IMG/VR virus record: IMGVR_UViG_3300017991_000154
Location: 1-47,932 of that record
Reading direction: 5' to 3' (one strand)
DNA from: a virus
DNA length: 47,932 nucleotides
Positions 6,296-47,932 of this stretch are shown here, in pieces; the stretch's first letter is position 1, and each line of letters starts with the position of its first letter. A program made the position numbers and the translations under genes. The notes under the pieces are model-generated. The model ran no database searches. It was given only the letters and a program-made list of their open reading frames with translations, and was not told the DNA's origin.

Positions 6296-6310
6296 TTCTT
6301 TCTCTCCGAT

Positions 6311-6356
6311 GGCGGGAAGGACTTTAACAAACTCCTTTATCCTTCCCGTCTTAATT
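6311..6356 (+). terminator. Terminator-like hairpin after the decoration gene
   Basis: GGCGGGAAGGA (6311-6321) pairs with TCCTTCCCGTC (6340-6350), followed by a weak T-rich run. It separates the head genes from the beta-helix gene. Confidence 0.65.
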
Positions 6357-6377
6357 TTAAATAATGAGGTACAAAAA

Positions 6378-7470: not shown

Positions 7471-8391
7471 ATGGCTACTTTCTCTACATTAGCAAATCGA
7501 GTCAGGGCAATTGTTGATTTGTCTGGCTTCAATATGCCAGTGAATATTTCGTTACTTCTCCAGGAAGCAGAAAACGAATTTATCAGGAAAACGTTCTGTA
7601 CGGAAGAAATACGAGAGATTCAAAGCGAGGCATCAACTGTTACTTTTGATGGGACTGAAACAGATATTACTTTTGTTCCAGGATCAGGCAATACGAAGGA
7701 TACCATAACAGATGATAGCGATGGCTTTACCGATGATGGATTTGAAGCTGGAAAAGAGATTGTTGTGGCTGATAGTACCAGCAATGACGGAACGTATACT
7801 ATCTCATCCGTTGCTGATGGAACGCTTACGCTTGTTTCCATAGGCAGACTAACGAGTGAAAGTGGCGTATCGGGAATGACAATATCTCAAAACCAAGTGC
7901 CGTATATATTTGCTTTACCAAGTGACTTTGTGAAAGAGTTTCGAGTAAGTTATCGGGGAATACAACTCGAACCGCTCAGTATGCAAACCACTGGTGAAAT
8001 AACTAAAAGTACAGGTACTATTCAAACAGGAACACCTTATTATTATTGGATAGAAGGTTCTTATATTCACATAACTCCTAAACCGTTACAATCAGGTCTC
8101 TTGAAGTTGTGGTACTGTAAGTATAATACGGACAGTACCTCAACTTCCCCTATTATACCAACTATTGAACATTACTATCTACCAGATTGGGTCATTGGTA
8201 CGATTTACGAATTAGACAAAAACTCACAAATGGCAGATAGGTTTTTATCGAAGTTTTATTCTAATTGTGAATCAAGGAAAGTAATGTATGCTTCTCGCAG
8301 ATTCAAACAAAGAAGAATAGCCGATGTAGTTGGTGGAGAAGGAAAGAGAACTGGAATAGAAAATTGGATTAATATAGTAGAGGAGGCGTAA
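7471..8391 (+). CDS. Head-tail adaptor-type protein with shared beta module
   Basis: A 306-residue protein. The N-terminus (TLANRVRAIVDLSGFNMP, LLLQEAENEFIRKT) and the C-terminal part (PSDFVKEFRVSYRG, YYYWIEGSYIHITPKP, LKLWYCKY, HYYLPDWVIGTIYEL) fit the podovirus adaptor/gatekeeper pattern (P22 gp4 or T7 gp11 type), a helical ring beneath the portal. Residues 59-137 carry the same inserted module as the decoration protein (FDGTETDITFVPGSGNTKD, NDGTYTISSVADGTLTL). Apart from the insert it is about the usual length. It would connect the portal to the tail nozzle. Confidence 0.65.
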   Translation: MATFSTLANRVRAIVDLSGFNMPVNISLLLQEAENEFIRKTFCTEEIREIQSEASTVTFDGTETDITFVPGSGNTKDTITDDSDGFTDDGFEAGKEIVVADSTSNDGTYTISSVADGTLTLVSIGRLTSESGVSGMTISQNQVPYIFALPSDFVKEFRVSYRGIQLEPLSMQTTGEITKSTGTIQTGTPYYYWIEGSYIHITPKPLQSGLLKLWYCKYNTDSTSTSPIIPTIEHYYLPDWVIGTIYELDKNSQMADRFLSKFYSNCESRKVMYASRRFKQRRIADVVGGEGKRTGIENWINIVEEA

Positions 8392-21777: not shown

Positions 21778-22016
21778 TGGAATGGTTAGAAAATAGCAAT
21801 TTTCCGAAGTATGCCTATCCCTTACATACTTTTCCTAAATATGCGGTATTGGGAAATGAGATAGCGGTAACAATAGTTAGGCGTAAGCGTGTAACGACTT
21901 CCAAAGGTGGCGGAAATGTTGAGTTTTATCCAGAAGATAAACTTATTGCTATAAAATTAATTGAAGAAAGAGAGATATTAGAAATTATCACAATTCTACT
22001 AAAGGTTATTGAATGA
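21777..22016 (+). CDS. Small hypothetical protein
   Basis: A 79-residue protein coupled to both neighbours (its ATG overlaps the spike stop, its stop overlaps the giant gene's ATG). It begins MEWLENSNFPKYAYPLHTFP, has a beta pair with Arg/Lys (ITIVRRKRV-like region) and ends in a hydrophobic helix (EILEIITILLKVIE). No family recognised. Its position suggests a role connected to the spike or to the polyvalent protein. Confidence 0.6.
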   Translation: MEWLENSNFPKYAYPLHTFPKYAVLGNEIAVTIVRRKRVTTSKGGGNVEFYPEDKLIAIKLIEEREILEIITILLKVIE

Positions 22017-25000
22017 GCTGGAAAGATTGTTTAAAAATATTGAGCTTGAAAGATAGGAATGAGTTTAAAAAGCTCCGTACTACAAAAGAGATGATTGCAG
22101 AAGCACAATCTCGTCTTGATGTTTTATCTCAAGAGCAAATAGATATTGAAAGCGTTATTGTTAAGCATTATAACAAGCTCAAACGAGGATATAAATATGA
22201 TCCAGAAGTCAAGGCTAAGTTGAAAGAAATAGATACGACTATTGATGAATTGAGAAGAATTAGACCAGCAGTTGAAGTAGAGCAGCCGATTGAAGAAAAA
22301 GAAGTAGAGCCAGAGGTAAATCTCGAAGCAAAAGCAGAGGAGAAACAAGCAGAGCCTGCTGAGGAGGAGAAGGAAACACCAGAACAACGAATTACAAAAA
22401 TAATTACTGAATCAAAAGAAAGTGGCAAAGTATTAAGAGATAAAATTCAAAGCGAACTTAATAAGGCAGGCAATGAATTACAACAAGAAGCTGGCAAAAA
22501 GATACGTGATTTAAAGCCAGTTGGTAAACAATCTGAAATGGGAGAAGTTTTCAAGGCTGCGCCTCCCAAAGGTAAAGTCTTTGTGAATATACTTGGTACG
22601 AATTACGCTTTCCCTGAAAACAAACAACCCACAAAAGAGCAAATTGATGATATAGAAGCCACTTTCAAAAAAGGTGAGGACTATCTAAAAAAGACCTTTG
22701 ATTATAATTTTTCTATTATAGAGCCTAATCGTACAATAGGAAATAAAAAAGTATTAGAAAAAGGATTAAGTCTAAAAGATAAAGGTTTATTAGAAAAAGA
22801 TGAAATTGAATTTGTAAATAAGTTAGAAAAATATTGGAATGAAAATCCAAATGCTGATTCAGGTATTGTAGATGAAAATGGGAATATAATTACATTAGAA
22901 GAAAGCAGAGAAAAACGAAAGCAACCAAAGAAGAAGCTGGAAAAGCCAAGCGAGAAAGTTCCAAAACGGAAGCCTAAAAAGGAGTTGAAAAAACCTGAAC
23001 CAACTAAAGATAGATATTTAGGCAAGAACGAAAATGGGGACGAAATCTATTTAGACAAAAATGGTGTTCGATATATCCTAACTGGTGCTAACAAGAATAT
23101 CAGAAGCTCTGAACCTGTTAGCGTGTTACCAACTGGTGAATATTCTCCGAGACATACGCCTCCACGTCAATTTAGAACAATGGAAGAACTGGCAAAAGAA
23201 TCAGAGCCGAAGGAACTCAAAAAACCAGAGCAAAAAGCCGAGACAGAAAAGAAACTTGTAAAGCCAGAAGCAAAGAAAACTGATTTTGTCATATCTACTA
23301 TTAATGAAGCACAGAACGGTATTGAACTTTCATTTAAAAGCAAACCGTCAGAGGAAATAAGGAATAGACTTAAAGCGCATAAATTTCGGTGGTCACCCAA
23401 GAAGAAAATATGGTATGCTACAAAAAATTCCAGTACACTAACATTTGCGGAAGAATTGAAAGATGAATTGAATGTGGCGCCAGAAGCTCCTATCGAAGAT
23501 TTGACTCCTGTACAAGCAGAGATAGCAAAACGAGCCGAAGAATTAACTGAACCAGAGATCGAAGAAATACATAGAGATTTAAAACGGTTAGCTGGTGTTG
23601 ATTATGACATGGCTACTGAAAGGAATGATGTAGGGTTCAATAAATTCGACACACAATTTGGCAACGAGTTAGCCAATAAAGAAAGACTAACTCCAAAGCA
23701 GGCAGCAGCAGCCGAGAAGATGCTTAGGAAGTATGCAAAGCAATTAGGTAAAAAATCAAAAAAGGAACTAAAAAAACCAGAGAAAGAAATTAAACCAGAA
23801 AAAGAACTCGCACCCTATTCATCTGAATATGGTGCAAACAACAAGATAGTAACCAGGGATAGAGCTAAAGAGCTTGAAGAAAAACTACGTCAGAAGTTGA
23901 ATCAACTTAATGTTGGTGTTGATCCTGAATTATTTACAATAGGTACTGAATTAGCTGTATTTCACATAGAGGCAGGGGTACGTAAATTCACTGATTATGC
24001 GAGGACAATGGCGGAGCAATTCGGTGAAAAGATAGTTCCATTTCTGAAATCTTTCTATCTCGGTGCGAAAAATTATCCAGGCGTCAATTATCCTGGTATG
24101 AACTCGGAAGCTGAAATTGAGCAATTGGAAAAAGAAGGCTTCTTGAATGATATGGAACTGTATGCTGAAACTTATAAAGACAAAAAAGCGTTAAATATAT
24201 CGAAGGAGGAACAAGATGGATTACGAACAAATAGCGACATCCCTGCTATCGGAAATGAGAAACAACTCAAAAGTGAAGGCGTTGAAACGACCTCAACTCA
24301 AACGTCTGATCAAGAGCGTATCTCAGACAGCGCAAGAGAGCGTGTGGATAGCTCTACAGCAAGCACAGAAAGACAAGAACCTACCGTATCAGAATCTACT
24401 GCAATTAACGAAAGCAGCCGAAGAAATAGCTCTGAAAGATATGGAAAACGAGATATACCAACTGTTCCAAGAAGAAACTTCAGACGAGGAGATTACGGAG
24501 AGACAAGTGGCTTAAAAGCAAAAGCAAGGGCTACTATTGACGCTATTAAGACGTGGAAAAAGATAGACAAAGAAGGTAGGCAAGCTACACCAGAGGAACA
24601 GGAAATACTTTCACAGTTTGCAGGAGCAGGTGGATTACTTTATTTATTCCCAGACCAAAACAATAAGATCAAAGAGGGATGGGAAGATGTTGCAACAGAA
24701 CTTCAAGAAATACTTTCACAGCAAGAATATGATTCTCTGAAATCAACTCTCCCAAATGCACATTATACCTCACCATTGGTTGTAACCAAAGTATTTAACA
24801 TTTTAGAGAAATTAGGCTTTAATGGTAAAGGAAAGATATTTGAGCCAGGTATGGGTGTTGGAAATTTCTTTTCATTAATGCCAGGAGAATGGAATGAAGC
24901 TGAATTGCATGGCGTTGAGATGGATATTGTCTCAGGGTCAATAGCAAGATTGCTTTATCCTCATGCCAATATAACAATCTCACCATTTCAGAAAATGGAA

Positions 25001-28000
25001 ATACCTGATAATACCTACGATGTTATTGTCGGTAATGTACCATTCAGCAATAAAATAACTCCTTTTGATCCAGTTCATAACAAAGAGAAGTTCAGTCTCC
25101 ATGATTACTTTATGAATAAGAGTATGAATATTCTCCGTCCAGGTGGATTAATGGCTGTTATCACATCAAGATACACAATGGATAAAATTGATCCAACGGT
25201 ACGAAAGAAATTGTATGAATCTGGTGATTTGATAACGGCTATCAGACTTCCAAAGACTGCATTTCAAAAGACTGCTAATACGGAAGTGGTGACAGATATT
25301 TTAATATTTCGCAAGAGGATGCCAGGGGAAAATAAAGGTGATAGTATTTGGTTGGGAACAATTGATAAAGAATTAGTTAATTCGGAAGGTGGGTATGATT
25401 CCTCAAATATCAATGAATATTTTATAGGTAACAGCAAAAATTTATTTAGAAATGTAGCTGGAAATATTTCATTAACAGGAACTATGTATGCTAAAAATGA
25501 ATTAACTGTTACACTTTCTAATCCGAGTTATTTAGAGAATGTACTCGATCAAATAATAAATGAACAAAAAATAAACGATAGTGATAAATACGTAGAAAGA
25601 GAACCAATTTCACCAACCGAAAGAGAATTTGAGGAACAAAAGTTTGAGAATGCTGAATTTGACAATTGGAATGATGTAAAGATTGGCGCATATACTGTCA
25701 GTAAAGATGGTAGATTGTTTATTAAACAGGAAGGTAATCTTCCAGTTGAAGTCACGATAAAAAAGAAAGGTTCAAAGTTAGGTGTTAATCAACAGGATTA
25801 TGATCGTATAATTGGATTTGTTAGATTAAGAGATGCATGGCAGAAAGTTCTTACCACTCAGGCTAATTTAGAATCAACAGCAGTTAAAGAGCAGGCTCGT
25901 AGGGAACTCAATAGAATTTATGATTCTTATGTAAAAGAATTTGGATATTTCAATCATACATCGAAAACAGAGTATACCAGGAAGTCAGATGGAAAAGTTA
26001 TTGTCACTCGAAGACAAAAAAATTTGAAACCATGTATGGCTGATCCAGATGTTTGGGGCGTTTCTTCTCTTGAGAGTTACGATGAGGATACAGGCGAATC
26101 AAAAAAGAATCAAATATTTGAACATGATGTAATCGGAGTAGAGCCACCAGCACAAATAGAAACTCCTTCAGATGCACTTATAGCTTCACTCAATGAAACA
26201 GGAAAAGTTGATTTTGATTATATGTCTGAACAATTGGGGATTGATGAAGATAAGATAATCGAGGAATTAAAAGGTCAGATATTTCTTAATCCTGTAAATG
26301 AAACTTTTGAAATAAAAGAAAAATATCTATCTGGCAATGTAAAACGTAAACTTGCAGAAGCAAAAGAAGCATACAAGAAAGATAAAAAGTATGCGGATAA
26401 TGTAAAGGCATTGGAAGAAGTACAACCAGAAGATGTACCACCGACTCAGATAGCTGCTAATCTTGGTCAGCCCTGGATTCCAATAGAGGACATAGAAGCT
26501 TTCGTAAATCATATTGATGAAAATGCAAAGGCAACTATTACTTATACACCAAGAGAAGCAAAGTATCACGTTTCTATCTATGGAATGGACGAAACCATTG
26601 CAAAAAATACTTGGGGAACAAGCAAGAAATCATTTGCAAAGCTATTAGAAACGGCACTAAATAAAGGTTTACCCAAAATATTGGTTAAAACAACTAACGA
26701 ACAAGGTGATGAAATAACTGTTGTTGATCAAGATGCGACTGCATTGGCACAAGATAAGATGTCGAGAACAAAAGAGCGTTTCTCCGAATGGTTGTGGGAA
26801 GATGATGATAGACAGATAAGGTTAGCAAGGCTGTATAACGACACATATAATACCAACGTAAGTCCTAAATATGATGGTACGTTTTTGACTTTCAAGGGAA
26901 TGAAAGCAAAGGGTGGATGGTTTAAGGGATTGTATCCACATCAAAAAAATTCAGTATGGCGCCAATTGCAAGAAGGCAATACGCTATTTTCTCATGTAGT
27001 CGGAAGCGGTAAGACAATTACAATGATTACCGCTGGAATGGAAATGAAACGTTTGGGAATGATCAATAAACCTATGTACGTTATTCCGAATCACATGCTA
27101 CGTCAGTTTAGTAATGAGTTTTTAGAACTTTATCCAACTGCAAAATTAATGGTTGCCGATGAAATAAACTTTAAGACATCTAAGCGAAAACTCTTTGTAA
27201 ATAAAATTGCAAGTCAGGATATAGACGCTGTTATTATTACTCATAGCGGTTTTGGAAAAATACCAATTAGCGCCAGGACAGAAGAAAAATACGTAAGAGA
27301 AGAAATAGAAGCTTATGAAACACTGATTGTTGAGGCAAAGAGAGATAGAGACACAAATGCTACAAAAGATTTAGAAGCAAGAAAATTAAATCTTCAGGAG
27401 AGATTACGTAAGTTATCAGCAAGTATGAATAGAGATACAGGTATTGAGTTTGAGAAAACAGGTGTTGATTATATTTTCATAGATGAGGCACATGAATTTA
27501 AGAATCTTGAAACAAGATCAAAAATGGCTGCTTTGAATATAAAGAATCTCCCAACTCAAGGAGTAGCTAAAGCGTGGGATTTGTTTGTAAAGTCTCGTTA
27601 TTTGGCGGAGCGTAATCCCAAGCGATTTATGACATTTGCAACTGGTACTCCTGTATCGAATAGCATGGTAGAACTTTATAATCTTATGCGATACTTACAG
27701 CCCTGGAAGCTGCAAGAGTTAGGTATGGAACACTTTGACGCATGGGCATCGAGTTTCTGTGATGTGGTAAGTCAAATCGAAATCGATCCCACTGGTTCAG
27801 GGTTTAGAATGGATAGTCGATTTGCTAAATTTGTTAATTTACCAGAATTAATGCAGGCATTTGGAGAGGTTAATGACTTTGTATCAAATGACGATTTAAT
27901 AAGAGATAAAATAATAAAACTTCCACCGATTAAAGGTGGAAAAGCACAATTGATACAAATAGAACCCGATGAAACACAAAAAAGTGCGGTTAAATGGCTT

Positions 28001-31000
28001 AAATATAGATTAGATCATTTGACAAAGCCAATGAAGGGTGCAGATAATGCATTAAGTATTGTTAATGATGGCAGGTTAATTGCTATTGATCCGAGATCGA
28101 GATTTAAGGGAATAAAGCATCCGCCAGAGGGAAAGGTCGCAAAGGCTACAAAGGAAATATATAGAATATGGGAAGAAACCAAAGACAAAAGATATACTCA
28201 ATTAGTTTTCTCCGATTTGGCAACTCCAAGCAAAACGAAATATTCTGTTTATAACGATATTCGTAAAGCATTAATAAGCATGGGTGTTCCGAAAGATGAA
28301 ATTGCTTTTATGCACGACTATCCAGGAGCAATACAAAAAGAACGATTGTTCAGCGATATGCGGTCTGGAAATAAGCGTATTCTCTTTGGTTCGACTAAAA
28401 AGATGGGCATGGGAACAAATGTTCAAAAAAATCTTTATGCAGTTCACCACATAGATGCACCCTGGCGTCCAGCCGATGTAGAGCAAAGAGATGGGCGTAT
28501 TTATCGGCAAGGTAACTTGTGTCCTGAAATAGAAATCATTCGCTATGTCACAAAAGGTACATTTGATGCTTATATGTGGCAGACGTTAGAAGTCAAACAA
28601 GGGTTCATTGAACAATTGTTAAAGGGTAGTGCTGAAATTAGAGAAATGGAAGATGTAAATCTAAAAGATGCATTATTCGATCCTGCTCAGGCAAAAGCAT
28701 TAGCAGCAGCCAATCCGTATATGTTCGAGAAAGTCAAGACAGATGTTGAGATTAAGAAATTAGGTGCTTTAAAGAAAGCAATGAAAGATGAGGAATATAG
28801 AAGAAATAAGAAATTAACGGATGAAAAAAGATTTGTTGAGAGAAGCCAAAATAGAATTAAAGAGTTGGATGAATGGATAAAACAAGCAGTTGACACAACT
28901 GGCGATAAGTTTAAAATAAAATTAGGAAACAAATATTTTGCAGATAGAAATGAAGCTGCTAATGAATTGGATAAAAAACTTGAAGATATTTCCAGAGGGA
29001 CAGAGATAAAAGCGATAGGATATTTTAAAATTGGAGAACTTGCTGGTTTTCCATTATATGCTAAATTTTTCAATACAAAAGTCCACAAGAAGACTAACAA
29101 ATGGTATGCGGTTACTTTGCGATTCGGGGAGATTGCGCAATCAGTTGAAGTTGGAACTTTTGCTAAAGAACAAATAGTAAAAGATAATCCATTTGACATT
29201 TTGGAATTTAATTATAAATCTGAGGCATCTTTAAGTTATGTGATCGGAGGAGGTTTAGAAGTAAGAGATGATGTAACATGGAACAATGCTCGTGAAGCTA
29301 TTCTATCGTTGGAACATATTTCCAGATCATTGCCAAGAAGAAAAGAGTACGTAGAAAAACAAATAGAACAATCAGAGAAATCAATTAAATCTCTAAGTCA
29401 AGCACCGGAAGGTTTTAAACAGGAAGAAAAATTAAAACAATTAAAAGAGAGATCGCTTGAATTAGAAATGTTAATTCGACAATCGGGTGCGCAACAAGGA
29501 GAGGAAGAATTTCCAGATTTCAGTGACATTATTTCCAAATATACAGGTAGAATTACATCGAATATTATAGAATATATCGGAAAATTAGCGAATGAAAAAG
29601 GTGGCATTTCTCAAGCATTAGAGGACAGAATCAGGCAAGTAGAGGAGGAACAGGAAGAAGAAGAGATAGAGGAACAAAAGAAGCGAGGCAAAATTGCAGG
29701 AAAAGAACCAACCATCAGTTCATTAGCAGAATGGAATGCTCAGGCTATTGTTATGTTAGATAAAGCTGTACCAGGAATAGACGTTTATTATGATATTCCG
29801 AAAACAGAATTTAACAAAGCATTAGCTCAAATTGGAGCAGAGGGTGAGCCGTTAGGGTTTTTCTCACCAAAGAACAATGCAATTTTCATAAATCCAACAA
29901 AGGCAAATAAGGATACCATTTTCCATGAATATGCTCATATAGTAGTGGGTTGGATTAAGAAAAGCGATCCTGCTTTGTATCAAGAAGGTATTGGATTGTT
30001 AAAAGATTCTCCATACAAAACAACTGAAGAAGGATTAGTTCAAGCTATCGGGGAGAAAGGAGCGCAAATACAAGATGGATATAAAAAGAATCGGTTTGTT
30101 GCATGGATAAAAAAGATATGGATAAAAACAAAAATACGATTTAAGAGATTGTTCAATATTGATTTGACACTAAATGAATTTACTGAAATGATCTCTTATG
30201 CAATGCGTGGTGGTAAGCCAATCGTGCCCAAAAATGTTAGTAAAAGATTAGTAAAGCCACAATATCAATATGCAGGTGAAAGAGCAAGGACAGCGAATTT
30301 AGGCAATCTTGAATTAGCAAAACAACTTGAATCACAGGGACAAAACACGAGAACAACGACAGGATGGTTTAAGGGTCCCGATAAAAAGTGGAGATTTGTG
30401 ATTGATGATAGTGAGATGTCAATACGTAAGGTATCTGAATATCAAGCATTTCCATCTGTTTGGGACGAGAATATAAGAGATTATAAACAAGAATTTAGAG
30501 GAAGATTGGCTGACGCTGTTAAACATGATGCATTATTTGAAGCATATCCAGATTTAGCAGATATAAGGGTTTCGCTGTATATCAATGAAAATGTTAGCGT
30601 GGCTGGAATGTTAAAAACGAAAGGACTTGATTTAGCAAATGCGGAAATAATACTACAAGCTCCCGATGTTAATTCATTGAGAGAAAATTTAGCACATGAA
30701 ACCCAGCACTGGATTCAATTCTATGAAGGCTTTGCTCGTGGCGGGGAGATGGATAGAGATAGCAAGGCAGTCATTAGACAGAACATGGCTACTTTACAGC
30801 GATATTCTAATGAGATTGCTATTTCCCAACAGTTGATAGATCAAAATCCGTTCTCTTGGGACAAAGACAGACTTAACAAGGTAAGATCGAAGATTAAAGA
30901 ATTAAAATCTCAATACGATGAACTTTATAAAGTAACGAAAGAATTAAAGGATTTTGCTTATGAACAATACAAAAGATTAGCAGGTGAATTTGAAGCGAGA

Positions 31001-33805
31001 GATGTTTCAAGTAGAATAGACTTACCACCAGATTTGAGTTTTCTGATAGCTCCGTATTCTTCTGAAAAAAGAGATTTCAAGGACTTGATAATACAATATC
31101 ATGGGAAAAATGCAGCGTTATTAACAGAGGAAATGGAAGACCCGTTTATTACAGAAATGAGGAACAAATACCATTCAGGAGCATTTGAAGATCAGTCTGA
31201 ATTTTTATCTTTATTGGCAAAGGAAAAGTATCACTTCACTGATGTAGCCAGGGCAAAGAAATATTGGGGTGAAATTATTGCTGATAAGATAGAGCCAGAA
31301 GAAAAGACACCTCTTGATTTACCAGTAGAAACATGGTATCAGCATTTACAGCAACTATGGCAGGATAAATATAGACGATCTGGGCAGTTAGTAAAGAGAG
31401 CAAGGGAACGTGGTGAATCTTTTGGCGACGAACTTGATTTTAGATTGAGCGAAGAATTGTTTATTGGCAGAGCTTCGGATCAAATCGAAAAATTCCAAAA
31501 GAAAATAACAAATGATAAAGATGGTTTTTTGGAAAGGTTAATTGATGCAGGCATTGATTGGCAAGATTTGAGTTTATTCATGTATGCCCGACATGCTCCT
31601 GAACGAAACGAGACTATCAAACAGGAGGATATTGAAATTAAAAAAACTCATCCTAATCACGAAGTAAATGAAGCAGGTTCAGGAATGAGTGACAAAGATG
31701 CTCGTGATACGATGCTTGAGTTTGAAGAAACAGGGAAAGTCTCAGAATATACTCGTTTTGCTGATGAATACTATGAGACAGTAACGAAACCAGCATTAAA
31801 GCTTCAATATGAAGCAGGATTGATAAAAGAAGAAGAATATGAGCAATATCTAAGTCAATGGAAATACTACGTTCCACTCAAAGGAATAAATAGGGCAAAA
31901 CAATTTAGAATGAGAGGAAAAGGCTATTCTGTTGAATATAAGGGTATTATAAAAGCCAGGGGACGGCATTCACTTGCTCAAAACAATCCATTCATTCAGG
32001 GAATAATGGATCACGAGGATGCCATTATCCGAGCCGAAAAGAACAAAGTCGGTCAAGATTTTCTTAAATTTGTATTAGCTCATAAAGATGCTACAATGCC
32101 AGGTAAATTCGGAGATGAACCTTTGTGGCATGTTGAAGGAAGAAAGAAACTTCCAACTTATAATAAGTTTGGAGAAATAGAATATTTCAGAAATGCAAAA
32201 CAACAGTTAGCAGACGAGGAATTTGCTGTTTGGGTTGATGGCAAACAGAAAGTGATTACTATTTACGATCAAGCATTGTTAAATGGATTAAAAAATATTG
32301 GTATAGAAAGAGGTTTCAAATTTCTAAACAAAGTAAATCATTATCTACGATTAGTAAATACGATGCTCAATCCAGAATTTATTATTTCCAATTTTGAGCG
32401 TGATTTACAAACAGCGATTATTAATTTGGAAGCTTTTCAAATAAAGAAGATAAAGCGCAATGTGATGAAAGATATTCCAAAAGCGATGTCAGGTATTTGG
32501 AAAGGAATTCGAGATAAAGAAGGTAATGAGTGGACACGGATATTTGACGAGTATAAAGCAGAAGGCGGAAAAACTGGCTGGTTTGATTATAAGACTTTGG
32601 ATGAAAAAACAGAGGAATTTGAAAATAAGATAGCTAATTACAAAAAATCGGGTGATATTAAAAAAGCACTTGAACTTACAAAGCAATTTGTTTTTGATAT
32701 TAATGATACAGTTGAAAATGCTGTTAGGTTGTCTGCATATAAAAACGCAAAAGACGCTGGAATGACTAAAAAACAAGCAGCTAATTTAGCTAAAAACCTT
32801 ACTCTCAATTTTAACAAAAAGGGAGAGATGGGTGGATTTATGAATAGTCTTTATCTATTTGCAAATGCTGGGGTGCAGGGTGGAGCAAGATTATTAGTGG
32901 CACTAAAATCAAAACGAGTACAAAGAATTGGTGTTGGTTTGGTATTATGGTCTATATTATGGGATACAATAAACAGACTAATTGGCGGTGATGATTATGA
33001 AAAAATAGATGAGTATATTAAAGACACAAATCACATTTTTATAATTCCTGGTACTGACAAACATTTTAGAATAAGACTTCCTTACGGATATAATGTATTT
33101 AATGTTGTAGGATTGGCAATCAGTGCTGTTTTACATGGTGAAGACCCCATTCATCAAGGAGGACGAATACTCTCAAATATAGTTGATGCATTTAATCCAC
33201 TTGGCAGAGCAGGGTCGTTGGGACAATTGATTTCTCCGACAGCTTTTGATTTACCGCTTCAACTGTGGGAAAATAAGAATTTCTTTGGTGGTCCCATTAG
33301 AAAGGAGCAACCAGCGTATGCACCAAAGATACCAGAGTCAGAGCGATATTTTAGTACAGTTAGTCCATACACTCAACAATTGACAACTTGGCTCAATGAT
33401 GTTACTGGTGGATCATCACGAAAAAGAGGATGGTTAGATATTAATCCAGAGAATATAGATCATGTATTAGATTTCGCAGGAGGTGGTACAGGCAGATTTC
33501 TGATTCGATCTATAAATGTTCCCTGGACATTAATCTCAGAGGGCAACTTTCCGCATCCTGAAAAGATTCCATTTGTTAGACAGGTATATGGTGAACGTTC
33601 TGAATGGATGGATTTCAAAAAAGTGAATGAGTATATCAAAGAAGCTGGACGTACTCGCTTCTCACGTAAACAAGTTACTGATTTTATGACTTCTTTAAAT
33701 ACGCTATACGAGGAAAAGAAGATCACAAAAGAAAATTACAAACGGAAAAAAGCTGTTTTTTTTAACGCACAGCATAAGCTAAAAAGACGTACAGTAAAGA
33801 AATAG
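22013..33805 (+). CDS. Giant polyvalent protein: DarB-like methyltransferase/helicase with metallopeptidase-like modules
   Basis: A 3930-residue protein, far longer than phage P1 DarB-type proteins. Visible order: Lys/Glu/Pro-rich linkers (1-430); a small domain with 'HKFRWSPKKKIWYA' (~438-475); LPD-type segments (~540-578 and ~605-693, YGANNKIVTRDR); a methyltransferase with FEPGMGVGNFF (~943-953) and NVPF (~1007); an SNF2-type helicase with GSGKT (1664-1668), DEAH (1824-1827), ATGTPVSNS (~1876) and a motif V-VI block (~2131-2167, DAPWRPADVEQRDGRIYRQG); an HEXXH site HEYAH (2638-2642); a second HETQH (2895-2899); a long helical region; and an LPD38-like C-terminus with a membrane helix (~3637-3660). 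Polyvalent proteins of this class are packed in the head and enter the host with DNA to counter restriction. Its place beside ejection-type genes agrees. The methyltransferase motif IV is N-V-P-F rather than N-P-P-F/Y. Confidence 0.9.
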   Translation: MSWKDCLKILSLKDRNEFKKLRTTKEMIAEAQSRLDVLSQEQIDIESVIVKHYNKLKRGYKYDPEVKAKLKEIDTTIDELRRIRPAVEVEQPIEEKEVEPEVNLEAKAEEKQAEPAEEEKETPEQRITKIITESKESGKVLRDKIQSELNKAGNELQQEAGKKIRDLKPVGKQSEMGEVFKAAPPKGKVFVNILGTNYAFPENKQPTKEQIDDIEATFKKGEDYLKKTFDYNFSIIEPNRTIGNKKVLEKGLSLKDKGLLEKDEIEFVNKLEKYWNENPNADSGIVDENGNIITLEESREKRKQPKKKLEKPSEKVPKRKPKKELKKPEPTKDRYLGKNENGDEIYLDKNGVRYILTGANKNIRSSEPVSVLPTGEYSPRHTPPRQFRTMEELAKESEPKELKKPEQKAETEKKLVKPEAKKTDFVISTINEAQNGIELSFKSKPSEEIRNRLKAHKFRWSPKKKIWYATKNSSTLTFAEELKDELNVAPEAPIEDLTPVQAEIAKRAEELTEPEIEEIHRDLKRLAGVDYDMATERNDVGFNKFDTQFGNELANKERLTPKQAAAAEKMLRKYAKQLGKKSKKELKKPEKEIKPEKELAPYSSEYGANNKIVTRDRAKELEEKLRQKLNQLNVGVDPELFTIGTELAVFHIEAGVRKFTDYARTMAEQFGEKIVPFLKSFYLGAKNYPGVNYPGMNSEAEIEQLEKEGFLNDMELYAETYKDKKALNISKEEQDGLRTNSDIPAIGNEKQLKSEGVETTSTQTSDQERISDSARERVDSSTASTERQEPTVSESTAINESSRRNSSERYGKRDIPTVPRRNFRRGDYGETSGLKAKARATIDAIKTWKKIDKEGRQATPEEQEILSQFAGAGGLLYLFPDQNNKIKEGWEDVATELQEILSQQEYDSLKSTLPNAHYTSPLVVTKVFNILEKLGFNGKGKIFEPGMGVGNFFSLMPGEWNEAELHGVEMDIVSGSIARLLYPHANITISPFQKMEIPDNTYDVIVGNVPFSNKITPFDPVHNKEKFSLHDYFMNKSMNILRPGGLMAVITSRYTMDKIDPTVRKKLYESGDLITAIRLPKTAFQKTANTEVVTDILIFRKRMPGENKGDSIWLGTIDKELVNSEGGYDSSNINEYFIGNSKNLFRNVAGNISLTGTMYAKNELTVTLSNPSYLENVLDQIINEQKINDSDKYVEREPISPTEREFEEQKFENAEFDNWNDVKIGAYTVSKDGRLFIKQEGNLPVEVTIKKKGSKLGVNQQDYDRIIGFVRLRDAWQKVLTTQANLESTAVKEQARRELNRIYDSYVKEFGYFNHTSKTEYTRKSDGKVIVTRRQKNLKPCMADPDVWGVSSLESYDEDTGESKKNQIFEHDVIGVEPPAQIETPSDALIASLNETGKVDFDYMSEQLGIDEDKIIEELKGQIFLNPVNETFEIKEKYLSGNVKRKLAEAKEAYKKDKKYADNVKALEEVQPEDVPPTQIAANLGQPWIPIEDIEAFVNHIDENAKATITYTPREAKYHVSIYGMDETIAKNTWGTSKKSFAKLLETALNKGLPKILVKTTNEQGDEITVVDQDATALAQDKMSRTKERFSEWLWEDDDRQIRLARLYNDTYNTNVSPKYDGTFLTFKGMKAKGGWFKGLYPHQKNSVWRQLQEGNTLFSHVVGSGKTITMITAGMEMKRLGMINKPMYVIPNHMLRQFSNEFLELYPTAKLMVADEINFKTSKRKLFVNKIASQDIDAVIITHSGFGKIPISARTEEKYVREEIEAYETLIVEAKRDRDTNATKDLEARKLNLQERLRKLSASMNRDTGIEFEKTGVDYIFIDEAHEFKNLETRSKMAALNIKNLPTQGVAKAWDLFVKSRYLAERNPKRFMTFATGTPVSNSMVELYNLMRYLQPWKLQELGMEHFDAWASSFCDVVSQIEIDPTGSGFRMDSRFAKFVNLPELMQAFGEVNDFVSNDDLIRDKIIKLPPIKGGKAQLIQIEPDETQKSAVKWLKYRLDHLTKPMKGADNALSIVNDGRLIAIDPRSRFKGIKHPPEGKVAKATKEIYRIWEETKDKRYTQLVFSDLATPSKTKYSVYNDIRKALISMGVPKDEIAFMHDYPGAIQKERLFSDMRSGNKRILFGSTKKMGMGTNVQKNLYAVHHIDAPWRPADVEQRDGRIYRQGNLCPEIEIIRYVTKGTFDAYMWQTLEVKQGFIEQLLKGSAEIREMEDVNLKDALFDPAQAKALAAANPYMFEKVKTDVEIKKLGALKKAMKDEEYRRNKKLTDEKRFVERSQNRIKELDEWIKQAVDTTGDKFKIKLGNKYFADRNEAANELDKKLEDISRGTEIKAIGYFKIGELAGFPLYAKFFNTKVHKKTNKWYAVTLRFGEIAQSVEVGTFAKEQIVKDNPFDILEFNYKSEASLSYVIGGGLEVRDDVTWNNAREAILSLEHISRSLPRRKEYVEKQIEQSEKSIKSLSQAPEGFKQEEKLKQLKERSLELEMLIRQSGAQQGEEEFPDFSDIISKYTGRITSNIIEYIGKLANEKGGISQALEDRIRQVEEEQEEEEIEEQKKRGKIAGKEPTISSLAEWNAQAIVMLDKAVPGIDVYYDIPKTEFNKALAQIGAEGEPLGFFSPKNNAIFINPTKANKDTIFHEYAHIVVGWIKKSDPALYQEGIGLLKDSPYKTTEEGLVQAIGEKGAQIQDGYKKNRFVAWIKKIWIKTKIRFKRLFNIDLTLNEFTEMISYAMRGGKPIVPKNVSKRLVKPQYQYAGERARTANLGNLELAKQLESQGQNTRTTTGWFKGPDKKWRFVIDDSEMSIRKVSEYQAFPSVWDENIRDYKQEFRGRLADAVKHDALFEAYPDLADIRVSLYINENVSVAGMLKTKGLDLANAEIILQAPDVNSLRENLAHETQHWIQFYEGFARGGEMDRDSKAVIRQNMATLQRYSNEIAISQQLIDQNPFSWDKDRLNKVRSKIKELKSQYDELYKVTKELKDFAYEQYKRLAGEFEARDVSSRIDLPPDLSFLIAPYSSEKRDFKDLIIQYHGKNAALLTEEMEDPFITEMRNKYHSGAFEDQSEFLSLLAKEKYHFTDVARAKKYWGEIIADKIEPEEKTPLDLPVETWYQHLQQLWQDKYRRSGQLVKRARERGESFGDELDFRLSEELFIGRASDQIEKFQKKITNDKDGFLERLIDAGIDWQDLSLFMYARHAPERNETIKQEDIEIKKTHPNHEVNEAGSGMSDKDARDTMLEFEETGKVSEYTRFADEYYETVTKPALKLQYEAGLIKEEEYEQYLSQWKYYVPLKGINRAKQFRMRGKGYSVEYKGIIKARGRHSLAQNNPFIQGIMDHEDAIIRAEKNKVGQDFLKFVLAHKDATMPGKFGDEPLWHVEGRKKLPTYNKFGEIEYFRNAKQQLADEEFAVWVDGKQKVITIYDQALLNGLKNIGIERGFKFLNKVNHYLRLVNTMLNPEFIISNFERDLQTAIINLEAFQIKKIKRNVMKDIPKAMSGIWKGIRDKEGNEWTRIFDEYKAEGGKTGWFDYKTLDEKTEEFENKIANYKKSGDIKKALELTKQFVFDINDTVENAVRLSAYKNAKDAGMTKKQAANLAKNLTLNFNKKGEMGGFMNSLYLFANAGVQGGARLLVALKSKRVQRIGVGLVLWSILWDTINRLIGGDDYEKIDEYIKDTNHIFIIPGTDKHFRIRLPYGYNVFNVVGLAISAVLHGEDPIHQGGRILSNIVDAFNPLGRAGSLGQLISPTAFDLPLQLWENKNFFGGPIRKEQPAYAPKIPESERYFSTVSPYTQQLTTWLNDVTGGSSRKRGWLDINPENIDHVLDFAGGGTGRFLIRSINVPWTLISEGNFPHPEKIPFVRQVYGERSEWMDFKKVNEYIKEAGRTRFSRKQVTDFMTSLNTLYEEKKITKENYKRKKAVFFNAQHKLKRRTVKK
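24216..24515 (+). CDS. Nested helical protein inside the giant gene (overprinted gene)
   Basis: A 99-residue open frame in the +1 frame of the giant gene. A perfect AAGGAGG (24203-24209) stands 6 bases before the ATG. The product is a normal-looking amphipathic helical protein (YEQIATSLLSEMRNNSKVK, SVWIALQQAQKDKNLP, NLLQLTKAAEEIALKDM) with acidic C-terminus. In the same stretch the giant protein (residues ~735-835) is Ser/Thr/Arg-rich and low-complexity, as often happens when a linker is overprinted by a real gene. Function unknown. Independent translation is inferred, not proven. Confidence 0.6.
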   Translation: MDYEQIATSLLSEMRNNSKVKALKRPQLKRLIKSVSQTAQESVWIALQQAQKDKNLPYQNLLQLTKAAEEIALKDMENEIYQLFQEETSDEEITERQVA

Positions 33806-33881: not shown

Positions 33882-33929
33882 AAGCCACTAAAACATAGCA
33901 CTATGCTATGCATTAGTGGCTTTTTTTTT
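33882..33929 (+). terminator. Strong hairpin with T9 tract upstream of the 33946 gene
   Basis: AAGCCACTAA (33882-33891) pairs with TTAGTGGCTT (33913-33922), stacked on CATAGCA/TGCTATG, followed by nine T. It lies ~50 bases downstream of the promoter at 33807 and 17 bases before the next start codon, so that promoter would yield only a short RNA unless read-through occurs. Confidence 0.75.
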
Positions 33930-33945
33930 GTTTGTGGAGATTATT

Positions 33946-34521
33946 ATGAAAAAAATATTAATTCTGCTGTTACTGATAAGCACTCCGCTTTTCGCTCAAA
34001 ATAGAGCATTAAGAATTGATTCACTTGAGGTGAACGACAAGAATGTTACTGGATTCTTTAATGATCTGATGTCAACGGATTTAATGAGGATTCATGTGGA
34101 TAGTCTTATCATGTTCACAGCCAGTGATTCAACAGATAGCGTATGGATAGCAGATAATGGCACTTATGTTCTTGTAACGTCTGATAATCCAGTTAAATTC
34201 AGTTCGGATATAATTATTTCAGACTATCTTCGTGTGAAAACCTACTATGATGATGACATAGATGACAATGATACGTATAATCTACCTGACGGTGCTTTTG
34301 GTCATGGTATAGTTTTTATATCAAACGACACAAATGAAGAAGGTGGAACATTTGGTTTTTTCGATGACAATCCATGTCTCATTTCAGTGTCAGCGAACTG
34401 CCAGGAAGCAGATGCAGACAGTAAATTAGTAATTATGGATGGTGGTGATACTGTTACAATTAAAAATACACTTGGAGATAATTATAAATTAACATTAATA
34501 ATCTGGTATTATATACCGTGA
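33946..34521 (+). CDS. Exported protein of the fibre cluster
   Basis: A 191-residue protein from the ATG at 33946 with GGAG upstream; the longer in-frame form would run through the terminator hairpin. Residues 1-18 are a signal peptide ending LFAQ. The rest is beta-rich and acidic (DSVWIADNGTYVLVTSD, DDDIDDNDTYNLPDG) and ends 'KLTLIIWYYIP', resembling the C-terminal tip domain of phage fibres (a 'KLVLQ/TLIW' type ending). It may be a fibre paralogue or adaptor. The start of the next fibre gene has a near-identical signal peptide. Confidence 0.65.
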   Translation: MKKILILLLLISTPLFAQNRALRIDSLEVNDKNVTGFFNDLMSTDLMRIHVDSLIMFTASDSTDSVWIADNGTYVLVTSDNPVKFSSDIIISDYLRVKTYYDDDIDDNDTYNLPDGAFGHGIVFISNDTNEEGGTFGFFDDNPCLISVSANCQEADADSKLVIMDGGDTVTIKNTLGDNYKLTLIIWYYIP

Positions 34522-34528
34522 GGTTAAT

Positions 34529-37315
34529 ATGAAAAAATTACTTATATTATTATTCTTAACTCCGACACTTTTGTTTGCTCAATTACGAAGTGACGGATTA
34601 AGAAAAAAAACCAATACAACATCTCACATCTCAATAGCCGATACGCTTGAAGCAACTAAAGCGAAAATAGATACATTGGAAGGATTAAGTACAGATTCTG
34701 TTTTTACCAAAGCAGACATGGTTTTTCTGCAAGACATTTTATTCAAAGCATCCAGTTCAAATGTGAGTCATTGGGTTGATTCAGGCGGGGATACCGTACT
34801 AACTTTTGACCCAAATGGAGCTTCTGGTCCCGTGCTAATCTTTGCAGATGGAACGGCTGCGGACACAGTGCAATTATATCACGATGGAACTAATTTTAAC
34901 ATTGTTCCTGATGCAGGAACTGGCAAAATTGATATAGATGGAAAATTAGAAACGAATCTTTCTGTGACAATTGATTCATCACGCAATGAAGGGACTTTTA
35001 GGCAAAAGGATGATGCAACATTCGGAGCTACTGCAACTGATGTTGTTATTAGTTCGGCTGGTAATGTAACGCTTAATTCAACGGTTGCAGATCAGGAACA
35101 CCCAACTTTTGTAATGAAGTCAGACTTTGACACAGATGCAAGTGCGACTACAGGATACACACTAACATGGGATCGTACAGGCAATGCTACACCTACTTCT
35201 GGCTACTGGACTTGTACAAGTTCTGGTGGACTTGGAGTCCAGATGCCTAATATGAGTATAGGTTCTGCACCCATTTCTGGTGTTTCACTGAATATAAATG
35301 GAGCACATATTAGAGTTGATCAAGCGACAAATTATACATTAGCCTTTGGAAACTCTTCTCAACAAAATAATAGTGGGCTATACTCTAACGCTTTTGGCTA
35401 TTTTTCTCAATATATTAACAGTGGATCAAAATCTAATGCTTTTGGAAACTATTCTCAACAAAATAACAGTGGAGCAAAATCTAATGCTTTTGGCTATTTT
35501 TCTCAACAAAATAACAATGAAGCAGAATGTAGTGCTTTTGGAAACTATTCTCAACAAAATAACAATGAAGCAGAATGTAGTGCTTTTGGAAACTATTCTC
35601 AACAAAACAATGATGGAGCAAAATCTAATGCTTTTGGATGTTATTCTCAATATATTAATAGTGGATCAAACTCTAACGCTTTTGGCTATTTTTCTCAATA
35701 TATTAACAGTGGGGCAAACTCTAATGCTTTTGGAAGCTACTCTCAAAAATATAACAATGGAGCAAGCTCTAATGCTTTTGGAAACTATTCTCAACAATAT
35801 AATGATGGCGATAATAATTCTTCTTTCGGCAACAAGTCTTTCAATACGTTTACGGAAGACGGTGGGAATGCCAAAACGTTTGCTAGTACAGATGTGATAG
35901 TAGATGGAGACTCAATTGTAATATCTTCTCACGGTTTTGGTAGTGCTGATACTTATGTAAATTTGAAGTGGACAGCTACTACAGGAGTATTACCGACAGG
36001 AATCAGTCTTGATCAAATAGATCAATTTTATATCGCTCATGCAGATACAATCGTTTTACAAACAGACGATATGACTACTCAGGGGAGTGGAAATCACACA
36101 CTTACACCACAAACTGTTTATACAAACAGTACGGCATTAGGATATGATGCAGAACCAGATGCAAGCAACCAGGTTATGCTTGGTGATGGGAATGTAACAC
36201 AAGTAAAATCAACTGGTAGTTTATATATTTCTGGTAGTAATGACAATTATATTAACGGAACAATGTCTATTGGTTCTTGGGGTTACACTGGTGAGCACAT
36301 CGTAATACCAGAAGCATCTAGCAATACAAATGCAGGACTTGGTTTATATGGAATGGTCAACTACGCAGCCTCGGCTGGTAAAACTATTGCTGGTACATAT
36401 TCAAGAGCTTTGTGTATGACCGAGAATCAGACGAACCAGGCAACTATCGTAGGTACTGAATCTCAGTTTAGACTACGAGATGTTAATATAGCAGATGGAG
36501 TTCACGCTGGCTTATGGGCGTATGCAGAACAAAGTGGGACATCAGTTTTAAGTGGTAATGGAACATTCGATGCTATAAATGCAACAGTTGAGTCGGAGTC
36601 TGGTTTCTCAGTCGGTGCGACAGAACAGGTTACTGGACTGACCCTTGATAGCTCAATCAATGGTAGCGCAACAATTAATGCCAGTGCTAATTTCACTGGG
36701 TTGTATATAAAGTCCAACGGCAAGGACTGGTTCAATGGAATATGGACAACTGGCTGTGCTAATGATTGGAAGTTAAGAAATGGAGCTACAATAGATAATA
36801 CTGATGCAAATACATTGACTATTACAGAACAAGATATTGATTTTGTAGGTAATTTATCGGCAACTACATATTCTATTGATGCAAACGAAGCGGTAATTTT
36901 GCCAGCGCCAGGAACTCTTACTGATGGTCAGTATGCAGGTGCAAGAATAATTACTTTAACTGCTGGTTATGGAACAACTGCAATCGGAGATTTGGTTTAT
37001 CTCAACAATGATGATTCTAAGTTTGAAAAGACTGATGGCAATGCAGCAGCAACAGCAGCCGATGTTTTGGTAGGAGTGGTATTAGAGGCTGTTGCTGAAA
37101 ATGCTTCATGTAAAATAATGCTTGAGGGAACGATTACAGTTGATGCCTGGGATTGGGCAACTGTTGGAGCTTCGTTATTTATCAGTGGCACAGCAGGGGG
37201 ATTCACTCAAACACGCTTAGCTGTAACGAATGATATTGTTAGAATTGTGGGATATGCTCTGGATGATGATACGATTTACTTTTGTCCAGATAATGCTTAT
37301 GCAACGGTGGAGTAA
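34529..37315 (+). CDS. Long tail fibre/adhesin with signal peptide and 16-residue repeats
   Basis: A 928-residue protein. Residues 1-18 form a signal peptide (ends LLFAQ). Residues 30-280 are beta-rich fibre material. Residues 286-429 are nine tandem 16-residue units of the type S-N-A-F-G-x-Y-S-Q-Q-N-N-S-G-A-K, like the YadA-head left-handed beta-roll of trimeric adhesins. The C-terminal half (ITLTAGYGTTAIGDLVYLN, ASCKIMLEGTITVDAW, GASLFISGTAGG) is the common phage fibre domain seen in many virion proteins. It is presumably a trimeric receptor-binding fibre. The combination of an adhesin-like head and a Sec signal is unusual for a phage; export before assembly, or a decoy or adhesion role, are alternatives. 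Confidence 0.75.
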   Translation: MKKLLILLFLTPTLLFAQLRSDGLRKKTNTTSHISIADTLEATKAKIDTLEGLSTDSVFTKADMVFLQDILFKASSSNVSHWVDSGGDTVLTFDPNGASGPVLIFADGTAADTVQLYHDGTNFNIVPDAGTGKIDIDGKLETNLSVTIDSSRNEGTFRQKDDATFGATATDVVISSAGNVTLNSTVADQEHPTFVMKSDFDTDASATTGYTLTWDRTGNATPTSGYWTCTSSGGLGVQMPNMSIGSAPISGVSLNINGAHIRVDQATNYTLAFGNSSQQNNSGLYSNAFGYFSQYINSGSKSNAFGNYSQQNNSGAKSNAFGYFSQQNNNEAECSAFGNYSQQNNNEAECSAFGNYSQQNNDGAKSNAFGCYSQYINSGSNSNAFGYFSQYINSGANSNAFGSYSQKYNNGASSNAFGNYSQQYNDGDNNSSFGNKSFNTFTEDGGNAKTFASTDVIVDGDSIVISSHGFGSADTYVNLKWTATTGVLPTGISLDQIDQFYIAHADTIVLQTDDMTTQGSGNHTLTPQTVYTNSTALGYDAEPDASNQVMLGDGNVTQVKSTGSLYISGSNDNYINGTMSIGSWGYTGEHIVIPEASSNTNAGLGLYGMVNYAASAGKTIAGTYSRALCMTENQTNQATIVGTESQFRLRDVNIADGVHAGLWAYAEQSGTSVLSGNGTFDAINATVESESGFSVGATEQVTGLTLDSSINGSATINASANFTGLYIKSNGKDWFNGIWTTGCANDWKLRNGATIDNTDANTLTITEQDIDFVGNLSATTYSIDANEAVILPAPGTLTDGQYAGARIITLTAGYGTTAIGDLVYLNNDDSKFEKTDGNAAATAADVLVGVVLEAVAENASCKIMLEGTITVDAWDWATVGASLFISGTAGGFTQTRLAVTNDIVRIVGYALDDDTIYFCPDNAYATVE
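35384..35815 (+). repeat. Nine tandem 48-bp repeats in the fibre gene
   Basis: Units start with TCTAATGCTTTTGG (or close variants) every 48 bases from 35384, with a degenerate half-unit on each side. Two sub-types alternate: units with TATTTTTCTCAATATATT and units with AACTATTCTCAACAAAAT. The near-identity of adjacent units suggests recent expansion and easy length change by slippage or recombination. Confidence 0.9.
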
Positions 37316-37318
37316 ATT

Positions 37319-38038
37319 ATGAAAAAGGTAATAATTATATTAATGCTTTGGTGTACAGTTGCCAATGCTGTAACTGGTACTTGTACGCTTACCTATTGGA
37401 TTAGAAATAGTGAAGCAACTTACGCTGCCACCAGGGATGATGCAAGCGGAAGTAATGATTCCAGTGCTGGACCTCAAGTTGGGCAAGCAACTGGATTTAA
37501 CGTGCATAGAGGGTATCTTCATTTTGATATTCCAGCTTTAGAAAATTGTACGAGTTGTTATTTATATATGTATGGGAAAAGTGACAATACAACAACTGAC
37601 TTTCAAATTATGGCGTATGCTGGTGAATGGGCTGGAAATCCTTCAAGTGCAGAATGGGATGAGTTTGATGGATGGACTTCTGGGTCTCCACATACTGGAA
37701 CAACTTTTATTGATGTTGGAGAATGGTCAACGAGTGAATTAATAATAGATGGTTGGAATGTTATAGAATTAAATGCATCAGGACGTGCTGCTGTTTTGGC
37801 TGCTGCCGAGGGTGAGCTTAAGATTGCATTAATATCAAAAGAAGATACTGATAGGAGTGAACCTACTGATGATGAATATTGTCAGTTTGAGGGTTTTAGC
37901 TCGGATTATCCTCCTTATCTAAGAATCAATGATCCGATAGGTACTGGATATACAGGAACAGCGTGTGGATTAGATAATCCTGCGAATGTTTGTGGGGTTG
38001 CAAAAGCTGATTTAGCTAATTTTATAGGTGTGGAATAA
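37319..38038 (+). CDS. Exported carbohydrate-binding-type (DNRLRE/CBM-like) protein
   Basis: A 239-residue protein with a signal peptide (KKVIIILMLWCTVANA) and a domain reading 'FNVHRGYLHFDIPALENCTS' then 'SCYLYMYGKSD', 'SELIIDGWNVIELNASGRAA', 'LKIALISKEDTDRSEP', 'SDYPPYLRIND'. This order (phage-like 'G-x-L-x-F-D-I', then 'IDGWN', then 'PPYLRI') is typical of DNRLRE/CBM96-like beta-sandwich domains that bind sugars. It would help attach to host surface polysaccharide, or be secreted. It follows the fibre gene directly (3 bases between stop and start). Confidence 0.65.
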   Translation: MKKVIIILMLWCTVANAVTGTCTLTYWIRNSEATYAATRDDASGSNDSSAGPQVGQATGFNVHRGYLHFDIPALENCTSCYLYMYGKSDNTTTDFQIMAYAGEWAGNPSSAEWDEFDGWTSGSPHTGTTFIDVGEWSTSELIIDGWNVIELNASGRAAVLAAAEGELKIALISKEDTDRSEPTDDEYCQFEGFSSDYPPYLRINDPIGTGYTGTACGLDNPANVCGVAKADLANFIGVE

Positions 38039-47348: not shown

Positions 47349-47932
47349 AAATAGAAATAAAAAATAGATTCACAGGAAATATTTTATTTTCTGTTAAAAC
47401 AAAGAATATTAAATTGGCAGTAGAAGCAGCTATTAAACAAGACGCTGATTTGCACGGCGCTGATTTGCAAGGCGCTTATTTGCAAGACGCTTATTTGCGA
47501 GGCGCTAATTTGCAAGGCGCTGATTTGCGAGGCGCTGATTTGCACGGCGCTTATTTGCGAGGCGCTGATTTGCAAGACGCTGATTTGCAAGGCGCTGATT
47601 TGCACGGCGCTTATTTGCGAGGCGCTAATTTGCAAGGCGCTGATTTGCGAGGCGCTAATTTGCGAGGCGCTGATTTGCGAGGCGCTGATTTGCACGGCGC
47701 TGATTTGCAAGACGCTGATTTGCGAGGCGCTGATTTGCAAGACGCTGATTTGCAAGGCGCTGATTTGCAAGGCGCTTATTTGCGAGGCGCTAATTTGCAA
47801 GGCGCTGATTTGCGAGGCGCTAATTTGCGAGGCGCTGATTTGCGAGGCGCTGATTTGCAAGGCGCTGATTTGCAAGGCGCTGATTTGCACGGCGCTTATT
47901 TGCGAGGCGCTGATTTGCGAGGCGCTAATTTG
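47345..47932 (+). CDS. Pentapeptide-repeat protein (3' end outside window)
   Basis: GTG start at 47345 overlapping the previous stop; 196 codons open to the window edge. Residues 1-33 (KIEIKNRFTGNILFSVKTKN) form the short N-terminal part often found in phage pentapeptide proteins, followed by ~32 units of A-D-L-x-G type (variants A-Y-L, A-N-L; Gln, Arg or His then Gly or Asp). These fold as a four-sided right-handed helix; some relatives (Qnr, MfpA) mimic DNA to protect gyrase. The opposite strand has a long open frame over the repeats that is a shadow. Confidence 0.85.
   Translation, partial: MKIEIKNRFTGNILFSVKTKNIKLAVEAAIKQDADLHGADLQGAYLQDAYLRGANLQGADLRGADLHGAYLRGADLQDADLQGADLHGAYLRGANLQGADLRGANLRGADLRGADLHGADLQDADLRGADLQDADLQGADLQGAYLRGANLQGADLRGANLRGADLRGADLQGADLQGADLHGAYLRGADLRGANL
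47444..47932 (+). repeat. 15-bp tandem repeat array in the pentapeptide gene
   Basis: About 32 units of GC-(G/T/A)AT-TTG-C(AA/GA/AC)-G(G/A)C every 15 bases up to the window end, almost without synonymous change. Variation is limited to four base positions. The uniform third-codon bases indicate very recent amplification. Confidence 0.9.

Follow-up and report, generated by a model that had tools for sequence, protein, structure and literature searches.

Polyvalent proteins are a published class, known for mosaics of circulating modules (Iyer et al. 2017, PMC5512222). The archetype of one branch, phage P1 DarB (AF234172 10469–17236, 2255 aa), belongs to a working antirestriction system (PMC5512222; PMC12810830). 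The DarB-like dyad of methyltransferase and SNF2 ATPase is described with an LPD36 GxGU motif N-terminal to the methylase, and motif IV of adenine methyltransferases is given there as NPP(Y/F) (PMC5512222). P1 DdrB, a packaged protein, is processed before packaging; the N4 virion RNA polymerase (vRNAP), an ejected giant of 3500 aa with a zincin-like HExxH, is packaged unprocessed, and the zincin-bearing plasmid proteins ArdC and TraC1 are packaged or transferred in one piece (PMC5512222). N4 vRNAP has also been expressed and solved full-length as a recombinant protein (PMC12633501), so the presence of a zincin does not by itself imply cleavage.

Setting and extent of the giant gene

The window analysed here is a virus record of 47,932 bp, in which one open reading frame, starting with ATG, runs over 3930 codons without an internal stop (Table 1). 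It was found to lie in a same-strand run of phage late or virion genes, including a head protein, an SU10-type adaptor, and PKD and beta-helix tail-like proteins. Among the proteins scanned from the window, none was identifiable as a terminase. The window also seems to be fragmentary, so additional virion proteases may exist.

Several side observations were made on the neighbouring genes. Four tail-like or accessory late proteins on the plus strand, at 33916–34521, 34529–37315, 37319–38038 and 6267–7463, showed signal-peptide-like stretches (MKKILILLLLISTPLFAQ, MKKLLILLFLTPTLLFAQ, MKKVIIILMLWCTVANA and MKKYFLFIILCFSLLFVNVYAQ) at or shortly after their predicted starts, which is unusual in virion proteins. 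The second of them, of 928 aa, contains many YadA-head-like repeats (SNAFGxYSQQNNxG). A pentapeptide-repeat protein (ADLRGANL...) encoded on the plus strand at ~47430–47932 runs off the right end, and the minus-strand frame listed at 47384–47890 is the antisense of this gene. An HNH/AP2 homing-endonuclease-like gene (2120–2866, plus strand) was observed within the head-gene region.

Table 1. Coordinates of the giant protein, its parts, two virion neighbours and the free LPD23-zincin genes (residues numbered in the giant)
Feature	Position (nt)	Strand	Basis or remark
Major head protein	4477-5514	same as giant	
SU10-type adaptor	7471-8391	same as giant	
Giant polyvalent protein ORF	22013..33805	+	3930 aa; PHROG 10089 DarB-like antirestriction, E=0 (residues 754-2495)
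Small module of phage primase/unknown families, residues 398-486	23204..23470	+	PHROG 6744 3e-8; PHROG 19458 (primase) 4e-4
Module common to other giant phage proteins, residues 609-707	23837..24133	+	PHROG 938, 2.6e-17
LPD36-like segment, GxGG motif (GAGG at 871)	24470..24712	+	Alignment A1; motif definition PMC5512222
N6-adenine methyltransferase domain, motif I EPGMGVGNF ~944, motif IV GNVPF 1007-1011	24713..25342	+	PHROG 10089/11801; A1; motif IV census; P1 DarB GNVPF
SWI2/SNF2 ATPase, residues 1640-2230 (GSGKT 1664, DEAH 1824, QRDGRIYR 2158)	26930..28702	+	Pfam SNF2-rel_dom (3.1e-9), Helicase_C; A1
Zincin 1 (predicted), residues 2590-2745; HEYAH 2638 (29924-29938); third-ligand candidate E2673 (30029-30031)	29780..30247	+	Alignment A4; AlphaFold; VIA-align
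LPD23 domain, residues 2751-2804	30263..30424	+	Pfam PF18838 4.3e-16; in all 51 members of alignment A5
Zincin 2 (predicted), residues 2825-3010; HETQH 2895 (30695-30709); third-ligand candidate E2992 (30986-30988); coiled-coil insert ~2910-2990	30485..31042	+	A5; AlphaFold; relatives' profiles
C-terminal module, residues 3094-3880, with LPD38 (residues 3660-3854; 32990-33574)	31292..33652	+	Phage-record matches; Pfam LPD38 3.7e-38
Free LPD23-zincin genes	L034 9689-11173; L069 9638-10822; L056 6277-7509; L071 9671-10990; L088 2089-3318; L030 2965-4152		Beside terminase, portal, head or connector genes

The earlier note on this DNA had named a methyltransferase, a complete SNF2-type helicase and two HEXXH sites, and these motifs and modules were found as placed or consistent with what was found. 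A domain-profile search gave LPD23, LPD38 and SNF2, together with an Eco57I-type methylase trace below the cut-off, which with the PHROG match upheld the polyvalent, DarB-like assignment. Of the "several" LPD-type domains expected, two were obtained by profile, and an LPD36-like GxGG was added by its motif. The giant thus joins unrelated activities, namely a methyltransferase, an SNF2 ATPase and two zincins, plus LPD23 and LPD38, and it is almost certainly a polyvalent protein of the DarB type. The note had also regarded it as unusually large, with DarB-like proteins much shorter. This does not hold, because its relatives span 3467–5376 aa (closed, methyltransferase-bearing ones reaching 4609 aa), the PHROG 10089 model has 4647 positions, and a polyvalent plasmid protein of 12,242 aa was already mentioned by Iyer et al. 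(PMC5512222). The protein is an ordinary representative of the class described in 2017 (Iyer et al. 2017, PMC5512222).

N-terminal to the methylase, the region 400–750 is conserved in the relatives L103 (9e-51), L013 and L010. At the other end, PHROG profiles showed that the C-terminal part matches other giant families. Phage records matching the C-terminal module numbered 136, with at least 80% of the query covered in 125 and a best identity of ~33%; the module is common to giant proteins of Vibrio, Stx, Burkholderia, Bacteroides and Pelagibacter phages, including a 2502-aa protein of Vibrio phage K249. A membrane-active end had been proposed as well. The highest 19-residue hydropathy means of the giant do lie near the C-terminus (1.38 at 3689 and 1.37 at 3639), but they stay below 1.6, the usual threshold for a membrane helix, so that the proposal is weakly supported.

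The methyltransferase-SNF2 part and its motif IV

In an alignment of the giant with 11 relatives (A1), the conserved elements were motifs I and IV, the LPD36-like GxGG and every one of the helicase motifs (methyltransferase part, METHYLTRANSFERASE). The GAGG at 871 aligns with GWGG or GFGG in most relatives, in the form (V/A)GWGG, and the SWI2/SNF2 ATPase follows C-terminal to the methylase with Walker A, Walker B and motif VI present. P1 DarB has the same order of methyltransferase and SWI2/SNF2 and aligned in three blocks at 24–32%. Unlike the giant, however, it is without HEXXH; the alignment covers the methyltransferase-SNF2 part only, and DarB has little over half the giant's length.

Motif IV of the giant reads DVIVGNVPF (1003–1011), and it had been suggested that NVPF marks an altered or inactive methyltransferase. 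At the homologous position of 75 distinct relatives, NVPF was found in 67, NIPF in 5 and NPPF in 3, and P1 DarB itself carries VGNVPF. Since both the large majority of relatives and the archetype have it, NVPF is the normal state of the DarB-like family, and the suggestion is not supported. The published NPP(Y/F) form fits a minority of the relatives, and the letters of motif IV do not separate members of the DarB dyad from non-members. A literature search for DarB together with NVPF returned nothing.

Other DarB-like giants are those of the Burkholderia phages JC1 (4515 aa), BcepMigl, BcepIL02 and DC1 and of Pseudomonas phage 8P (5145 aa). Each is the product of a single gene towards the end of the virion region, and identity in the methyltransferase-SNF2 part is 34–37%. 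The 8P protein also has an LPD23-zincin and a second HEXXH, and that of JC1 has the C-terminal module in common with the giant. In these phages the other modules differ both in kind and in arrangement, and some of the proteins are annotated with lytic transglycosylase domains, which were not found in the giant.

The two zincin domains and their relatives

Two HEXXH sites were observed in the giant against 0.065 expected from amino-acid composition alone, and both are conserved in relatives. In the alignment of zincin 1 (A4, giant plus 17 relatives), H79, E80, H83 and E114, the last corresponding to E2673, were invariant in 18 of 18 sequences; the candidate third ligand stands in the context LEEALxQAIGEKG, of which the GEKG is invariant as well. 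The AlphaFold model showed a core with pLDDT mostly 82–96, in which three strands are accompanied by the HEXXH helix and by a second helix bearing E2673, which is the layout given for these domains by Iyer et al. (PMC5512222). Foldseek returned weak E-values for this model (best 0.06). By VIA-align, all of the top 50 listed matches were zincins of the lethal-factor/PPEP type, the best with Z 7.4 over 137 residues at an rmsd of 4.3 Å. A Z below 8 is modest by itself; what supports the assignment is that the list is uniform and the ligands are conserved. Iyer et al. (PMC5512222) placed the N4 domain in the same structural family. Searched alone, zincin 1 gave no match in plasmids and, in phages, a clear match in Tenacibaculum phage Gundel_1 only.

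Zincin 2 follows directly after LPD23. Among the 51 sequences of alignment A5, HExxH was kept in 51 of 51, the residues corresponding to Q2902 and E2905 in all, and E248 (= E2992, within AGExEAR) in all 49 that are ungapped there. The relatives matched the DUF6782 metallopeptidase profile (23 of 51, best 8.7e-10) as well as M78/IrrE, SprT and MPTase-PolyVal profiles. In the AlphaFold model (pLDDT 84) the strands and helices follow one another as in zincins, and a coiled coil of ~75 residues separates the HEXXH helix from the one with the glutamate. Against the PDB, the match list was filled by matches to this coiled-coil insert. Against a viral library, other LPD-containing phage proteins were matched; these matches confirm the family, though not the function. 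A phmmer search of PDB sequences found nothing, and profile searches gave chance-level matches only.

Conserved HEXXH and downstream glutamate in both alignments, the model match of site 1, and the element order and relatives' profiles of site 2 led us to assign both sites to zincin domains. The claim of two separate modules was thus borne out; structure prediction did not place both sites outside a zincin fold. Judged from their sequences, the two look like different clades. A tandem duplication was considered and rejected, as the profile-profile comparison gave 54% probability over just 34 columns and the relatives differ.

Scans of viral contigs with single proteins yielded one locus for the zincin region and none for the C-terminal module, so that queries built from alignments were needed. 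In L103 (IMG/VR contig 3300005077_000040), one reading frame carries the middle module, methyltransferase, SNF2, zincin 1 (HEFAH) and LPD23-zincin 2 (HEVQH), but the frame has at least 5376 aa and its two HEXXH sites are separated by 947 residues, compared with 257 in the giant. Both zincins were found in L099, L102, L104 and L110, where the DarB part was not detected. In L024, methyltransferase-SNF2 is followed by another HEXXH domain (HENWH) and then by LPD23-zincin 2, with almost the same spacing as in the giant. The possibility that this HENWH domain is zincin 1 was rejected, since BLAST joined just LPD23-zincin 2 and the surroundings of HENWH differ. As modules recur in different combinations among these relatives (L103, L099, L024 and the records with the C-terminal module), the giant is a mosaic of circulating modules.

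LPD23-zincin was also found as a separate gene of 331–547 aa at no fewer than a dozen loci, with no adjoining giant. Pseudomonas phage F116, its relatives and the stand-alone genes all have LPD23 followed by HE(L)QH and then, where the sequence reaches, AGEVEAR; in F116 the LPD23-zincin module starts a second, separate gene, which is different from the fused arrangement of the giant. The neighbours of the free genes were terminase and portal (L034, L071, L056 and L069), portal (L088), a head protein (L034 and L045) and head closure (L030, whose free protein has 396 aa). This agrees with a general remark by Iyer et al. (PMC5512222), who noted that certain LPDs are found by themselves close to the structural genes of phages. 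As a separate observation, L039 (8163–9320 and 13409–14701) has a free LPD23-zincin near a gene weakly matching PHROG 2534, "released from the phage upon host infection" (1e-8).

Proposed working of the giant

The PHROG match, the alignment with P1 DarB, the methyltransferase-SNF2 invariants shared with 11 relatives and the late-gene context support a virion giant of the DarB type, which is probably a component of the particle that enters the cell along with the DNA. The packaging, antirestriction and any cleavage that we infer for it would proceed as follows. The protein would be produced when the late genes are expressed, be enclosed in the head and leave it along with the DNA. The SNF2 motor would travel along this DNA as it enters, and the methyltransferase part would shield the DNA against restriction; the C-terminal LPD38 module, common to giants of other phages, would serve packaging or ejection. 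For the two zincins, the likeliest job would be to make limited cuts in the giant, in partner ejection proteins or in both, while the head matures or during ejection. Taken as a whole, a virion-borne antirestriction giant built on a DarB-like dyad, with zincins for limited processing, is the explanation we favour, at somewhat better than even odds.

Conservation of the ligands suggests that both zincins are likely to be competent metallopeptidases. That the HEXXH domains are instead zinc-stabilised structural or binding modules lacking protease activity seems improbable: among the LPD23-zincins found none has a shown activity, and the C1 domain of N4 vRNAP keeps its HExxH with no reported cleavage (PMC12633501), yet no informative sequence has lost the general-base or the third-ligand glutamate (51/51 and 49/49 for zincin 2, 18/18 for zincin 1), a pattern that favours catalysis. 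As for the substrate, processing of virion proteins is tentatively proposed as the main job of the zincins, with chances a little short of even. It is supported by the free LPD23-zincin genes adjoining terminase, portal and capsid genes, and by the precedent of P1 DdrB, in which we located HELGH at 872. The earlier note had proposed that the zincins process the giant itself after injection, and this was already one option put forward by Iyer et al. (PMC5512222). Such cuts in the host cell would free methyltransferase-SNF2 from the C-terminal ejection module, and both zincins do lie between the DNA-acting half and that module, a sensible place for separation. We nevertheless consider this unlikely, as N4 vRNAP and ArdC/TraC1 have zincins yet are packaged or transferred intact, recombinant N4 vRNAP is stable at full length (PMC12633501), and LPD23-zincin 2 occurs as free genes with no giant nearby. 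Zincin 2 can accordingly act without a giant substrate in cis, which makes a role in trans or at the head stage at least as likely as self-cleavage in the cell.

A further reading, that the zincins are injected effectors cleaving host proteins such as defence or transcription factors, is rather unlikely in our view. Two unrelated zincin clades are swapped between relatives, with the HENWH domain of L024 at the place of zincin 1, and further HEXXH sites were observed in L099, L102 and L029; for jumbo phages, such variability has been interpreted as a sign of host targeting (PMC7824862). The stand-alone copies, however, belong to the head-gene region, away from early takeover genes; this location is as compatible with a virion role as with an injected effector. 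Virion-protein processing may also be framed more specifically, with LPD23-zincin as a mobile head/ejection protease that works as a free gene in trans on head and ejection proteins and has the same role when fused in DarB-type giants. This is doubtful; if true, LPD23-zincin would be the metallopeptidase counterpart of the serine-type prohead proteases.

The class has been described and the self-processing hypothesis published, and the giant is thus a good test case, not a surprise. Zincins are very common in polyvalent proteins, and this giant keeps both of its own intact beside a DarB dyad. Since the zincin 2 module exists elsewhere as a small free protein, expected to express readily, the hypotheses of self-processing, head processing and host targeting become directly comparable.
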